NCBI RefSeq assembly: GCF_900129325.1
Contig: NZ_FQUP01000002.1
Location: forward strand, 388,668 to 452,667
Source of the DNA: Kaistia soli DSM 19436
GTDB taxonomy: Bacteria; Pseudomonadota; Alphaproteobacteria; Rhizobiales; Kaistiaceae
Length of the DNA stretch: 64,000 nt
Direction of reading: 5' to 3'
Below the pieces are notes generated by a model that was given only the letters and a program-made list of their open reading frames with translations, did no database searches and had not been told where the DNA came from. The translations under genes were made by a program, and so were the position numbers. Below are positions 21,712 to 26,247 of the stretch, piece after piece; positions within the stretch are counted from its first letter, which is position 1, and each line of letters begins with the position of its first letter.

Positions 21712-22101
21712 CTACGGCTCCTCGTCGTCGACGCCGCCGATGATGTCGGCCACGTCGTCGCCTTCCTCTTCTTCCTCCTCGATGAAGACATCGCCTTCGT
21801 CGTCTTCGATCACGACGTCGTCGTCATCGGTTTCGGCCTCGACGGCGCCGGCATCGGCTGTTTCCGAATCGGCTTCCTCGAGGCTGATGAACTCGGCGGT
21901 GTCGGCAACCTCCTCCTCCGCCTCGTCCTCCTCGACGGCGCGCGCCGCGACCGGCCGTGCCTTGGCGGGGCCGCTCTCGAAATAGGACCGCGGATAGGAC
22001 TGGCCCGTGAAGGGCGATACAATCGGATCCTTGTTCAGGTCGTAGAACTTCTTCCCGGTTTCGGGGTCGACACGTTTGGTGCCGAGTTCCGCTTTCGCCA
22101 C
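21712..22101 (-). CDS. TIGR02300-family protein with acidic tail
   Basis: A 129-residue protein of the alphaproteobacterial TIGR02300 family (function unknown). The conserved part is the first ~45 residues: AKAELGTKRVDPETGKKFYDLNKDPIVSPFTG. In more distant members this region resembles a zinc ribbon with Cys pairs; here those positions hold Asp/Glu/Thr and Ser/Thr, so it should not bind zinc. Residues ~60-129 are extremely acidic (runs of Asp/Glu), giving a disordered tail. The start is taken as GTG at 22101 because the family begins with AKxELGTKR and GAGG lies 8 bases upstream; an ATG at 22161 would add unconserved residues. Confidence 0.82.
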   Translation of the reverse strand: MAKAELGTKRVDPETGKKFYDLNKDPIVSPFTGQSYPRSYFESGPAKARPVAARAVEEDEAEEEVADTAEFISLEEADSETADAGAVEAETDDDDVVIEDDEGDVFIEEEEEEGDDVADIIGGVDDEEP

Positions 22102-22300
22102 GTCGTGCCTCGCTGGTTCATGGAGCGCGGCCCCCATAATGCTTTGTCCGGGCGCTGTCAAAACGAAATCACCTGGGCAAGGCGCGAAACCCGTCGCCGG
22201 AGGCGGCGAAGGGCAGGTGGCGGGCCGTCGGGACCCATGCTATCCGACCTCAGGCAAAGATCCCAACCGGCGCACCCGCGCCAGGCCAGAGGAGCCGATC

Positions 22301-23659
22301 ATGTCGACAGCCGCCGGCGCGACCGCCGGGCCGCTCAAGGCCTTCGCCTCCGGCCCGCTGACGGGCCGTGTCCGCATGCCCGCCGATGCCTCGATTTCAC
22401 ATCGCGCCCTGATATTGGGGGCGCTCGCGATCGGCGAGACGGTGATCGAGGGCCTTATCGGCCGCGAGGACATCGCGGCGAGCGTGCGTGCCATGCAGGC
22501 CTTCGGGGCCACCGTAGCGGTCGATCCAGCCGGGACAATCCGCGTCAAGGGCGTCGGCGTCGGGGGCTTTCTCGAGCCTGAGGACGTGGTTGAATGCGGC
22601 CATTCCGGCACGACGGTCCGCCTTGCGATCGGACTGGTCGCGAGCCAGGCGATTGCGGCCACCTTCAGTGCCGGTGCCACGCTCCGCGCGCGCCCCATGG
22701 GGCGCGTATTGGAGCCGCTTCGGCGGATGGGCGCGCAGGTTGTCGCCCGCTCGCGCGATCGGCTGCCCCTCACGATCCGGGGCGCCGATGTTGCCCTGCC
22801 GATCGATTATCGCCTTCCGGCGGGTTCGGCGGAGGCCAAGTCGGCGGTGCTCTTCGCCGCGCTCAATACGGCCGGCGTCACCAGCATCATCGAGCCCGTG
22901 GCCACCCGCGATCACAGCGAGCGCATGCTGGCCGCATTTGGGGCGGCGCTCGAAATCGACCGCGATGGCGAGGGAGCCCGTGTCATCCGTGTCGAAGGCC
23001 GGCGGGATCTGAAGCCGCAGCGCCTTGTCGTTCCAGGCGACCCCGGCGCGGCTGCGTTTGTCATCGTCGCGGCGCTCGTCATCGAGGGTTCGGATGTCAC
23101 GATCGAGGGCGTCCTCGTCAATCCGTTGCGGATCGGCCTGATCGAGACGCTCGTCGAGATGGGTGGCGACATCGCGTTCGACAATCATCGCATGGTGGCC
23201 GGCGAACCGGTTGCTGATCTCCGTGTCCACGCCAGCCGCCTCAAGGGGATCGTCGTGCCCCCGGCCCGTGCCGCGGCGATGATCGATGACTATCCGGTGC
23301 TCGCGGTCGCCGCGGCCTTTGCGGAAGGCAAGACGGTGATGGACGGGCTCGGCGAATTGCGACAGCAGGACACGGACCGCCTCTCGGCCCTCGCCGCGGC
23401 GCTCGCGGCCAATGGCGTCGAGCATGAGGAAGGCCCGGAATCGCTGACCGTCACCGGCAGCCTCAGGCCGGCCGGTGGTGGCCGCGTCGCGGCCGGTGCC
23501 GACCCGCGCATCGCCCTGAGCGCGCTCGTGCTCGGCCTCGGCGCCGCGAACGGTGTCCTGGTCGAAGACGCGCGCACCATCGCGATGCCGTTCCCCGGCT
23601 TCGCGGCGCTGATGGGCGGGCTCGGCGCCCTTTTCGAAACTCCGGAGCCTGCAGCCTGA
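22301..23659 (+). CDS. aroA: EPSP synthase (AroA) family protein with altered active site
   Basis: A 452-residue protein of the 3-phosphoshikimate 1-carboxyvinyltransferase family, at the usual aroA-cmk-rpsA position. Fold features of class II EPSP synthases are present: SISHR (31-35), RPMGRVL (131-137), RDHSE (203-207), the PGDP turn and DDYPVLAVAAAFAEG (329-343). However, residues central to catalysis differ from the family: PGDKS is PADAS (Lys replaced by Ala30), GNSGT is GHSGT (His101), SAQ is SAE (Glu178), R-x-K-E-(S/T)-D-R is RQQDTDR (Gln356, Asp357) and DHR is DPR (Pro402). It may be non-catalytic or changed in function, with a second aroA elsewhere. ATG at 22301 follows AGAGGAG; the stop overlaps the cmk start (TGATG). 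Confidence 0.88.
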   Translation: MSTAAGATAGPLKAFASGPLTGRVRMPADASISHRALILGALAIGETVIEGLIGREDIAASVRAMQAFGATVAVDPAGTIRVKGVGVGGFLEPEDVVECGHSGTTVRLAIGLVASQAIAATFSAGATLRARPMGRVLEPLRRMGAQVVARSRDRLPLTIRGADVALPIDYRLPAGSAEAKSAVLFAALNTAGVTSIIEPVATRDHSERMLAAFGAALEIDRDGEGARVIRVEGRRDLKPQRLVVPGDPGAAAFVIVAALVIEGSDVTIEGVLVNPLRIGLIETLVEMGGDIAFDNHRMVAGEPVADLRVHASRLKGIVVPPARAAAMIDDYPVLAVAAAFAEGKTVMDGLGELRQQDTDRLSALAAALAANGVEHEEGPESLTVTGSLRPAGGGRVAAGADPRIALSALVLGLGAANGVLVEDARTIAMPFPGFAALMGGLGALFETPEPAA

Positions 23660-24282
23660 TGATCATCGCCATTGACGGGCCGGCCGGCGCCGGCAAGGGC
23701 ACGCTGGCGCTGCGGCTCGCCGCGCATTATGGCCTGCCATACCTCGACACCGGCCTGCTCTACCGTGCCGTCGGCCGCCTGATGGCTGAGCGCGGCCTTG
23801 ATCTCGACGATTCCGTGGCCGCCGGGGCTGTCGCCGAGGCGCTCGATCCCTCGCATATTGTCGATGGCGATCTGCGCGGCCGCGAAGCCGGCGAACTCGC
23901 CTCGCGCGTCGCCGTTCATCCCGAGGTGCGGGCCGCGCTCATCGCTTTCCAACGCGATTTTGCCCGTCGACCGCCGGGGGCTGTCCTCGATGGCCGCGAT
24001 ATCGGCACGGCGATCTGTCCCGATGCCGAGGTCAAGCTCTTCGTCACCGCGTCGCCCGAGGTGCGGGCCCGTCGGCGCACCGACGAGTTGAACGCCAAGG
24101 GCCGCCACGTCGACTATGAGCGCATTCTCGAGGAGATTCGCGAGCGCGACGAGCGCGATGCCGGACGCGCCTCGGCGCCGCTGCGGCAAGCCGAGGACGC
24201 GGTGCGGATCGATACCAGCGCCCTCGATATCGACGGCGTCTTCGACCTGGCGCGGGCGGTCATCGATGCCAAGCGCGGCTGA
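23659..24282 (+). CDS. cmk: Cytidylate kinase
   Basis: A 207-residue nucleoside monophosphate kinase that phosphorylates CMP and dCMP with ATP in the cytosol. The P-loop GPAGAGKGT (7-15), the NMP-binding DTGLLYRA segment, LDGRDIGT and the lid RRRTDELNAKGR are all typical of bacterial Cmk. Length is normal (about 210-230). The start codon overlaps the stop of the AroA-like gene, so translation is coupled. This pairing upstream of rpsA is conserved across many proteobacteria. Confidence 0.96.
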   Translation: MIIAIDGPAGAGKGTLALRLAAHYGLPYLDTGLLYRAVGRLMAERGLDLDDSVAAGAVAEALDPSHIVDGDLRGREAGELASRVAVHPEVRAALIAFQRDFARRPPGAVLDGRDIGTAICPDAEVKLFVTASPEVRARRRTDELNAKGRHVDYERILEEIRERDERDAGRASAPLRQAEDAVRIDTSALDIDGVFDLARAVIDAKRG

Positions 24283-24359: not shown

Positions 24360-24549
24360 GCGCGGGTTCCACGCGACAGGCAGGCAAGGGTCGCCGCCCG
24401 CCCGTGGTCCGAAACCATCGAGTTCCAGTCCGGAAGCGTCGGTCCGCCCTTAAAGAAGGGCAGCCCCGGTCCCTACCGCGGGCAGGTCCGGAATTCGATC
24501 CCGAAACACGAACCGCCGGCGCATGCCAGATATGGCACCAGGAGTTTTC

Positions 24550-26247
24550 ATGGCTGTTACCAATCCGTCCCGCGAAGATTTCGCCACCCTGCTCGAGGAA
24601 TCGTTCCAGAACGAGGACCTCTTCGAGGGCAGCGTCGTCAAGGGAACCGTCGTCGCGATCGAGAAGGATCTCGCGGTCATCGACGTCGGGCTGAAGACCG
24701 AGGGCCGCGTTGCTCTCAAGGAATTTGCGGGCCCCGGCCGCGACCAGCCGATCAAGGTCGGTGACGTTGTCGAGGTCTATCTCGAGCGCGTCGAAAACGC
24801 CCTCGGCGAAGCCGTTCTCTCGCGCGACAAGGCGCGCCGCGAGGAGAGCTGGGTCCGCCTCGAGGAGCAGTTCAACAAGAACGAGAAGGTCACGGGCGTC
24901 ATCTTCAACCAGGTCAAGGGTGGCTTCACCGTCGATCTGGACGGCGCCGTCGCCTTCCTGCCGCGCAGCCAGGTGGACATCCGCCCGGTTCGCGACGTCG
25001 GCCCGCTGATGCATACCCCGCAGCCGTTCCAGATCCTCAAGATGGACAAGCGCCGCGGCAACATCGTCGTGTCGCGCCGCACCGTTCTCGAGGAAACCCG
25101 CGCCGAGCAGCGTTCGGAGCTGGTGCAGAGCCTCGAGGAAGGCCAGATCATCGAGGGCGTCGTCAAGAACATCACCGATTACGGTGCGTTCGTCGACCTC
25201 GGCGGTATCGACGGCCTGCTGCATGTCACCGACATCGCATGGCGCCGGATCAACCACCCGACCGAAGTGCTCTCGATCGGCCAGACCGTCCGCGTGCAGA
25301 TCATCCGCGTCAATCACGAGACGCACCGCATCTCGCTCGGCATGAAGCAGCTCGAGGCCGATCCGTGGTCGGGCATCGAGGCGAAGTATCCGGTCAACGC
25401 CAAGTTCTCGGGCCGCGTCACGAACATCACCGACTACGGTGCGTTCGTCGAGCTGGAGCCGGGCATCGAAGGCCTGATCCACGTCTCCGAGATGTCCTGG
25501 ACGAAGAAGAACGTCCATCCGGGCAAGATCGTCTCGACCTCGCAGGAAGTCGAAGTCGTCATCCTCGAGGTGGATCCGGTCAAGCGCCGTATCTCGCTCG
25601 GCCTGAAGCAGACCCTCGCCAATCCGTGGGAGAGCTTCCAGGACAAGTATCCGATCGGTTCGATCGTCGAGGGCGAGGTCAAGAACAAGACCGAGTTCGG
25701 CCTGTTCATTGGGCTCGACGGCGATGTGGATGGCATGGTCCATCTTTCGGATCTCGACTGGAACCGTCCGGGCGAGCAGGTCATCGACGAGTACAATCGC
25801 GGTGACATCGTCAAGGCGCAGGTGCTCGACGTCGATATCGACAAGGAGCGCATCTCGCTCGGCATCAAGCAGGTTGGCGGCGATCCGTTCGTCGAAGCCT
25901 CCGGCGAACTGCGCAAGGGCGCCGTGGTCACCTGCGAGATCCTCGCGGTCAACGAGGGCGGCCTCGAAGTCCGCATCGCCGACAGCGACCTGACGACCTT
26001 CATCCGTCGCGCCGATCTCTCGCGCGATCGGTCGGAGCAGCGTCCGGAGCGGTTTGCCGCTGGCGAAAAGGTTGATGCTCGCATCACCAATTTCGACAAG
26101 AAGGCTCGCAAGGTCTCCGTCTCGATCAAGGCGCTTGAAATCGCCGAAGAGAAGGAAGCCGTGGCCCAGTTCGGCTCGTCCGACTCGGGCGCTTCGCTCG
26201 GCGACATTCTCGGTGCGGCTCTCAAGGCCCGCCAGACCGACGAGTAA
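24550..26247 (+). CDS. rpsA: 30S ribosomal protein S1
   Basis: A 565-residue protein built of six S1/OB repeats (starting about residues 30, 115, 200, 287, 375 and 462). It binds mRNA on the 30S subunit and helps initiate translation of messages with weak or structured leaders. Repeats three and four are nearly standard, with the paired signature ITDYGAFV(D/E)L and GLLHVTDIAW / GLIHVSEMSW. Start ATG at 24550 has AGGAG 6 bases upstream (an earlier ATG at 24523 lacks one). Length is normal for alphaproteobacterial S1. It ends at a strong terminator. Confidence 0.97.
   Translation: MAVTNPSREDFATLLEESFQNEDLFEGSVVKGTVVAIEKDLAVIDVGLKTEGRVALKEFAGPGRDQPIKVGDVVEVYLERVENALGEAVLSRDKARREESWVRLEEQFNKNEKVTGVIFNQVKGGFTVDLDGAVAFLPRSQVDIRPVRDVGPLMHTPQPFQILKMDKRRGNIVVSRRTVLEETRAEQRSELVQSLEEGQIIEGVVKNITDYGAFVDLGGIDGLLHVTDIAWRRINHPTEVLSIGQTVRVQIIRVNHETHRISLGMKQLEADPWSGIEAKYPVNAKFSGRVTNITDYGAFVELEPGIEGLIHVSEMSWTKKNVHPGKIVSTSQEVEVVILEVDPVKRRISLGLKQTLANPWESFQDKYPIGSIVEGEVKNKTEFGLFIGLDGDVDGMVHLSDLDWNRPGEQVIDEYNRGDIVKAQVLDVDIDKERISLGIKQVGGDPFVEASGELRKGAVVTCEILAVNEGGLEVRIADSDLTTFIRRADLSRDRSEQRPERFAAGEKVDARITNFDKKARKVSVSIKALEIAEEKEAVAQFGSSDSGASLGDILGAALKARQTDE

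Follow-up and report, generated by a model that had tools for sequence, protein, structure and literature searches.

EPSP synthase, the enzyme that glyphosate targets, is central to aromatic biosynthesis. The closest precedent for the protein described here is a truncated EPSP synthase domain in Pseudomonas syringae: according to the accessible part of PMC1173090, the fusion protein TyrA-AroF of this organism keeps such a domain after a stand-alone EPSP synthase was gained, and its authors propose that what remains of it might evolve into a regulatory domain. The same portion of that paper gives aroF > cmk > rpsA as a stable order in alphaproteobacteria, aroF being its name for the EPSP synthase gene, and reports that Agrobacterium tumefaciens has a divergent EPSP synthase unlinked to cmk and rpsA. 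For the E. coli enzyme, Asp313, Glu341 and Lys22 are described as catalytically important in the excerpted text of PMC12256929, and an RPMXR motif is required for EPSP synthase activity according to the title of a cited reference. In the open-licence literature, judged by titles and the opening lines of abstracts, no report of a full-length EPSP synthase pseudoenzyme was found.

The window analyzed in this study is a stretch of 64,000 nucleotides from the genome of Kaistia soli DSM 19436, and P0001 denotes the class II (CP4-type) AroA-like protein that it encodes. The locus has the aroA-cmk-rpsA order that the accessible part of PMC1173090 reports for alphaproteobacteria (Table 1). The reading frame of P0001 contains no internal stop and its stop codon overlaps the start of cmk, both as the first-pass annotation of this DNA had described. 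A GGAG like the one inside the 3' end of the frame lies at a similar place in several congeners, but not in all of them. The scan for sigma-70-type promoters found no promoter, and the search for terminator-like sites returned one, at chance level. The cmk label is our assumption from position and sequence, made without a family search, and the divergent upstream gene is presumably TIGR02300.

Table 1. Features of the P0001 locus, in positions of the window.
Feature	Positions	Strand	Basis or remark
Divergent upstream gene	21712..22161	-	Adjoins the class II copy in 11/11 loci checked
Shine-Dalgarno-like AGGAG, 6 nt 5' of the P0001 ATG (22301)	22290..22294	+	From sequence; putative function
P0001, class II (CP4-type) AroA-like protein, 452 aa, open frame	22301..23659	+	Without six of sixteen scored active-site residues
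Ala30 codon (CP4 K28)	22388..22390	+	Alignment with CP4 EPSP synthase
His101 codon (CP4 N98)	22601..22603	+	Alignment with CP4 EPSP synthase
Glu178 codon (CP4 Q175)	22832..22834	+	Alignment with CP4 EPSP synthase
Gln356-Asp357 codons (CP4 K353-E354)	23366..23371	+	Alignment with CP4 EPSP synthase
Pro402 codon (CP4 H404)	23504..23506	+	Alignment with CP4 EPSP synthase
GGAG within the 3' end of the P0001 frame, 11 nt 5' of the cmk ATG	23644..23647	+	Possible cmk ribosome-binding site; from sequence
TGATG, P0001 stop (TGA 23657-23659) overlapping the cmk ATG (23659)	23657..23661	+	Sequence
cmk (cytidylate kinase), 207 aa	23659..24282	+	Presumed from position and sequence
rpsA (30S ribosomal protein S1)	24523..26247	+	Named in annotated records

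By descent and predicted fold, P0001 classes as a class II EPSP synthase. It scored 335.7 bits against the NCBIfam aroA equivalog TIGR01356 (cut-off 287.25), and its best solved relative was the CP4 EPSP synthase (PDB 2gg4/2gg6/2ggd; 1.8e-129), with homology over the full length and 52% identity in the structure alignment. The predicted model (pLDDT 89.5, pTM 0.88, from an alignment of 29 sequences) has the two-domain EPSP synthase fold, and CP4 entries were its best Foldseek matches, with a TM of 0.91 to the unliganded 2gg4; since that alignment included intact relatives, the model indicates compatibility with the fold rather than proof of it. Unlike the CP4 enzyme, P0001 is missing active-site residues, and its genome has a class I enzyme elsewhere. 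The profile score does not test catalysis, because the copies from genomes G007 (353.2 bits) and G377 (338.1 bits) also pass despite losing 6/16 and 8/16 of the scored residues; more degraded copies (G005, G013, G349 and G187) fall below the cut-off.

The sixteen scored residues are a set that we presume, from general knowledge of EPSP synthases, to represent the active site. In CP4 numbering, the changes in P0001 are K28A, N98H, Q175E, K353Q, E354D and H404P, and all the altered sites listed in the first-pass annotation (Ala30, His101, Glu178, Gln356-Asp357 and Pro402) lie where it had placed them and align with these positions. Its statement that the core catalytic residues have been lost holds for these six, but E354D is a conservative change and the other ten residues are kept (S29, R33, T101, R104, R128, S173, R200, D326, R357 and R405 in CP4 numbering; among them R131, which is CP4 R128, and D329, R360 and R403 in that of P0001). 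By comparison, fourteen of the sixteen are lost in congeners G005 and G013. The sequence RPMGR at residues 131-135 means that the RPMXR motif is present. Ala30 occupies what we take to be the position of K22 in E. coli, and, with an assumed matching of E. coli to CP4 residue numbers, the Lys22 equivalent is lost, the Glu341 equivalent is Asp and the Asp313 equivalent is kept. Because ten of the sixteen residues and the RPMGR motif remain, weak residual activity of P0001 is possible.

Three PF00275 genes were identified in the genome, encoding MurA, a class I AroA and P0001. The class I gene, at C4:1915162-1916448, has intact PGSKS, GNAGT, SSQY, RVKECDR and DHR motifs, and 3nvs (V. cholerae) and 7tm4 (K. 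pneumoniae) are among the best solved relatives of its product; the same motifs, with RVKE(C/T)DR in the fourth place, are intact in 30/30 class I rows. A true aroA had been expected outside the window, and at the sequence level the genome search recovered one, so P0001 is not the only AroA of this organism. The accompanying assumption that the cell still makes chorismate agrees with the presence of a chorismate synthase gene, found in 14/14 genomes of the genus including this one. The class I AroA is 75% identical to the product of a Neorhizobium lilium gene (L090), which fits a spread of the class I gene within this order. Gene labels given by eye place it next to folE and hisI, and by the same labels it lies between these genes in 7/14 genomes of the genus; in the 5.7-7 kb retrieved around the other seven (loci L094, L095, L099 and L102-L105), neither folE nor a full hisI was matched. 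As these neighbours were matched in only half of the genomes, the position of the gene has apparently changed within the genus. A third PF00275 match in G007 (L229:1577-2872) was considered as an extra aroA and rejected, as it is MurA-like and sits in a polysaccharide-type cluster by labels given by eye. Its neighbours, also named by eye from the open reading frames, are epimerase, flippase-like and acetyltransferase-like genes.

The genus was represented by 14 genomes, with the source of P0001 as G000. Class I AroA was found in 14/14 of them versus 0/14 sampled genomes from other genera of the family, and the 13 rows from the genus group as one clade in the class I tree of 30 rows, with a support of 92/91, just under the support mark of the tool. 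A class II copy lies 5' of cmk in 13/14 genomes, with an open frame and a stop codon overlapping the cmk start in 13/13. These copies differ widely in their active sites: all sixteen residues are kept in three (G003, G004 and G008), one or two are changed in six (Q175R as the only scored change in G001, G009 and G012; E354A and H404P in G002, G010 and G011), and four are heavily altered, with six residues lost in each of G000 and G007 and fourteen in each of G005 and G013. None is frame-broken. The altered copies form three separate groups in the class II tree; of these, the Q175R group and a group of G000, G007, G005 and G013 are also supported by the trees of class I and cmk, which place G002, G010 and G011 as a grade. 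Because 3/13 copies within the genus and 14/14 sampled copies from other genera of the family are intact, the sequences indicate that residue loss is derived within the genus. The remaining genome, G006, is fragmented into 720 contigs, and no class II copy was found in it. It carries, beside rpsA, a chimeric frame (L236:3361-4320) in which the C-terminal end of cmk is fused to an unrelated enzyme and which is probably a misassembly; with such fragmentation, and with the cmk end inside a chimeric frame, G006 is uninformative on class II.

The nearest congener of P0001 is the G007 copy, at 83% identity. Both proteins carry Q175E and H404P, and site N98 is D in G007 and H in P0001. The changes in P0001 do not resemble chance or sequencing noise, because G007 shares Q175E and H404P and the pair is under strong purifying selection. 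Sequencing error or misassembly as their source was rejected, given that congeners share several of the changes and that the substitutions have the codon pattern of a selected gene. Thus, where the first-pass annotation had allowed that relatives might show the residues and this copy contain errors, the former applies to some relatives and the latter does not apply. Transfer of an already altered gene is not favoured as the origin of the G005/G013 copy, which, like that of G000/G007, has Q175E and T192S and has lost N98 and H404.

A class I AroA of this type was detected at E <= 1e-40 in 49/397 sampled genomes of the order. Of these, 36 lie outside the genus, and among the 36 a class II match was obtained in 11 and none was found in 25. 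Amongst the eleven, the copies of G391 and G369 are intact, and those of G377, G316, G382, G349 and G187 are altered. The copy of G269, from another family, is altered and frame-broken and is the only one separated from cmk. In family f49, G204, G137 and G162 (L192-L194) contain only the N-terminal half of the protein, 266-276 aa as extracted and 22-30 nt 5' of cmk, whereas the full-length copy is intact in the two genomes of this family without class I (G075 and G108). Of 75 genomes of genus g14 in family f6, 32 gave a class II match and 43 gave none, a few of the latter being incomplete assemblies; this set overlaps the 25/36 above. Not one of the 31 scored f6 copies has all sixteen residues, 14 having one to three changes and 17 six or more. 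A seemingly broken f6 copy (G444) was dropped as a sequencing error, as the rpsA of this genome is also split across frames.

Counting as altered any copy with at least one of the sixteen residues changed or half of the protein missing, alteration was found in 45/50 scored genomes with class I (10/13 in the genus, 31/31 in f6, 1/3 in f23 and 3/3 in f49) versus 0/21 without class I, with absence set at E <= 1e-20 (Fisher 1.2e-13, a value that ignores kinship). All sixteen residues are kept in each of these 21. In the 45/50 count, G391 and G369 were scored from motifs and the three f49 copies from length, and G006, G269, G444 and genomes with no class II match were left out. Alteration beside class I occurs in the family of this organism and in three other families of the order. 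Additionally, 13 g14 genomes (L205, L208, L211-L216, L218 and L220-L223) share a uniform class II variant with PGDKAISHR in 11/13, PSEQ/PSDQ or close to it, L-R-x-Q-E-C-D-R and a kept DHR, and with R200 changed in 10/13. With residues assigned to substrate sides as we presume them to lie, the PEP side is kept and the S3P side altered, and omega is 0.05-0.13 in four pairs; this variant may transfer an enolpyruvyl group to another acceptor.

What the altered copies retain was assessed in 22 heavily altered copies from three families, at sites whose conservation among 25 intact copies is at least 95%. Retention was 88% for Gly, 72% for hydrophobic residues, 65% for Pro and 51% for polar or charged residues. 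It was low at Q175 (0%), K353 and S124 (5% each), K28, N98 and E349 (9% each), H404 (14%) and E354 (18%), and reached 100% at D27, D244, R274, E299, D303 and T342. In the four heavily altered copies of the genus, hydrophobic columns remain 93-99% hydrophobic or Gly. Selection thus looks to have preserved a protein apparently able to fold, and not its chemistry. In this, P0001 appears to share what characterizes pseudoenzymes in general, namely a conserved fold, lost catalytic residues and purifying selection on the sequence. The substrate site varies among the altered copies, and their sequences do not reveal a binding role common to them.

Selection was estimated as pairwise maximum-likelihood omega under the F3x4 / F1x4 codon models. 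For G000-G007, omega was 0.082 / 0.145 (2dlnL versus omega=1 of 245.6 / 165.7), in line with the earlier proposal that the frame is kept by selection, and for G005-G013, with 14/16 residues lost, it was 0.120 / 0.218 (2dlnL 165.7 / 99.3). Comparison values were 0.044-0.140 for two intact class II pairs and 0.013-0.161 for class I pairs; with NG86, the altered pairs gave 0.185 and 0.298 versus 0.199 and 0.209 for intact pairs. Altered f6 pairs ranged over 0.08-0.41 and the f49 half proteins over 0.19-0.32. Two F3x4 fits were left out, cmk G001-G009 (negative 2dlnL) and G187-G441 (hit the bound). By these estimates, constraint on the altered copies matches that on working copies or is weaker by a factor of up to about three, and is far from neutral; it is present on both halves of the protein. 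Neither a broken frame nor a neutral pattern, the marks of a pseudogene, was found for P0001. The open frame alone was rejected as evidence of selection: simulated neutral drift in these GC-rich genes introduced no more than 1.5-2.8 stops per focal branch, which leaves omega to carry the argument. The simulated probability of no stop was 0.07-0.23 per branch, with a product of 1.5e-8 over eight focal branches.

The two heavily altered pairs differ in how far the active site has settled. In G005-G013, 32/39 replaced invariant polar sites have the same new residue in both copies, about the share of the whole protein (365/451), and constraint therefore appears to act after residue loss; conservation at the replaced positions does not exceed that of the rest, and gives no sign of a newly shaped active site in this pair. 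In G000-G007, change is fastest at polar sites that used to be invariant (28% different versus 17% at variable sites), which suggests that the active site is still changing there, and only 7/25 changed invariant polar sites have the same new residue. The class II stem of G005/G013 carries 1.18 changes per column, a length made uncertain by the unusual composition of the G005 row, and its tips 0.13-0.14. The comparable cmk stem is 0.084, or 0.157 with the branch shared with G000/G007 added, the class II tree leaving this fork open, and the cmk tips are 0.05. On this stem, change in the class II protein exceeded that in cmk by a factor of about 8 to 14, and ordinary constraint followed.

What has to be explained is a second AroA with intact motifs, the loss of catalytic residues with fold residues kept, purifying selection after that loss, its recurrence in four families and the overlap with cmk. 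We consider it probable that the class II EPSP synthase was displaced by the class I enzyme, became redundant and was kept as a folded, translated but non-catalytic protein overlapping cmk, which makes pseudoenzyme, one of the options put forward in the first-pass annotation, the best reading of the sequences. A class I EPSP synthase would have been acquired before the genus radiated and would supply EPSP; the native class II enzyme would then have become redundant, its catalytic residues would have been lost independently in several lineages of the genus, and the protein would have been retained as a folded first cistron ahead of cmk. P0001 would be catalytically dead or nearly so and the class I AroA the working enzyme of the cell; selection would see folded P0001 made together with CMK, and its present role may be that of a binding or regulatory partner or of a fold-dependent leader. 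Against the pseudoenzyme reading, class II is dispensable in at least some relatives (no match in the 43/75 f6 genomes) and the f49 copies are reduced to the N-terminal half. A broader version is possible but doubtful: after displacement by class I, class II EPSP synthases of the order would repeatedly have been remade as a new protein that lacks catalysis and is linked to the expression of cmk. The burst on the G005/G013 stem, with ordinary constraint after it, is what a change of function would lead one to expect. The same burst followed by slow tips is unexpected if the frame has had the constant role of a leader only, kept for translational coupling so that ribosomes ending at its stop start cmk, with a product that need only fold harmlessly. 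Such coupling agrees with the overlap in all class II copies of the genus, with an altered copy (G377) that overlaps a different downstream gene via ATGA, and with the broken state of the sole copy apart from cmk (G269). Additionally, 25/25 heavily altered or truncated copies end <=30 nt from the next start versus 9/14 mildly altered f6 copies (Fisher 0.003), a contrast that weakens to 15/20 once the six mildly altered focal copies, all overlapping, are added (Fisher 0.013), both values ignoring kinship. However, a leader alone does not call for amino-acid constraint on both protein halves, some intact relatives are also closely spaced to cmk, and cmk manages without any leader in the f6 genomes with no class II match. 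Moreover, a shortened frame was found in only one lineage (f49), even though in-frame shortening would preserve coupling. We regard this explanation as rather unlikely.

Slow decay of a redundant enzyme with residual activity, under relaxed selection, without a new role and heading to the loss seen in many relatives, would account for the graded states within the genus and for the class I genomes, in f6 and elsewhere outside the genus, where no class II match was found. It is nevertheless improbable, as omega stays well below 1 after residue loss even in the pair with 14/16 residues gone, no copy is frame-broken among the 13 of the genus and the 31 scored in f6 (the one broken copy, in G269, belongs to another family), and frames would rarely have stayed open on all eight focal branches under simulated drift. 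The first-pass annotation had also offered a transferase with new chemistry, in which P0001 would still act as a transferase of enolpyruvate or some other group, but with a different acceptor. The retention of R131, D329, R360 and R403 speaks for this, as does the uniform f6 variant with its altered S3P side and low omega, but K28, Q175, K353 and H404 are gone, residues of both substrate sites are among those lost here, the sister pair G005/G013 has replaced most of the scored set, and the substitutions of G000 and G007 differ from each other; we give it very little credence. The chance that P0001 remains a functional EPSP synthase, only with unusual residues, is slighter still. It could point to a score above the aroA cut-off, the conservative E354D and the ten kept residues, but K28A and Q175E are joined by the loss of K353 and H404, the 21 scored copies without class I alongside them keep all sixteen residues, and the score is passed by copies with as many or more losses.

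The pseudoenzyme reading resembles the P. syringae case, as far as the accessible part of PMC1173090 describes it, in that a native EPSP synthase was damaged, its remnant kept and a separate EPSP synthase acquired. It differs in that the P. syringae remnant, a domain within a fusion protein, has a deletion of about 200 residues, whereas P0001 is free-standing and full-length with point losses, the alteration recurs in four families, and selection was measured. For annotation there is a practical risk, since P0001 passes the aroA cut-off and could be mistaken for the EPSP synthase of the organism, for example when its glyphosate class is predicted; the class I copy is likely the working enzyme relevant to such a prediction. 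Altogether, the class II copies form a graded natural series, from intact through one residue lost and many lost to half a protein, of what may be an enzyme losing its chemistry while still selected as a protein, and this series lets one ask how pseudoenzymes arise.
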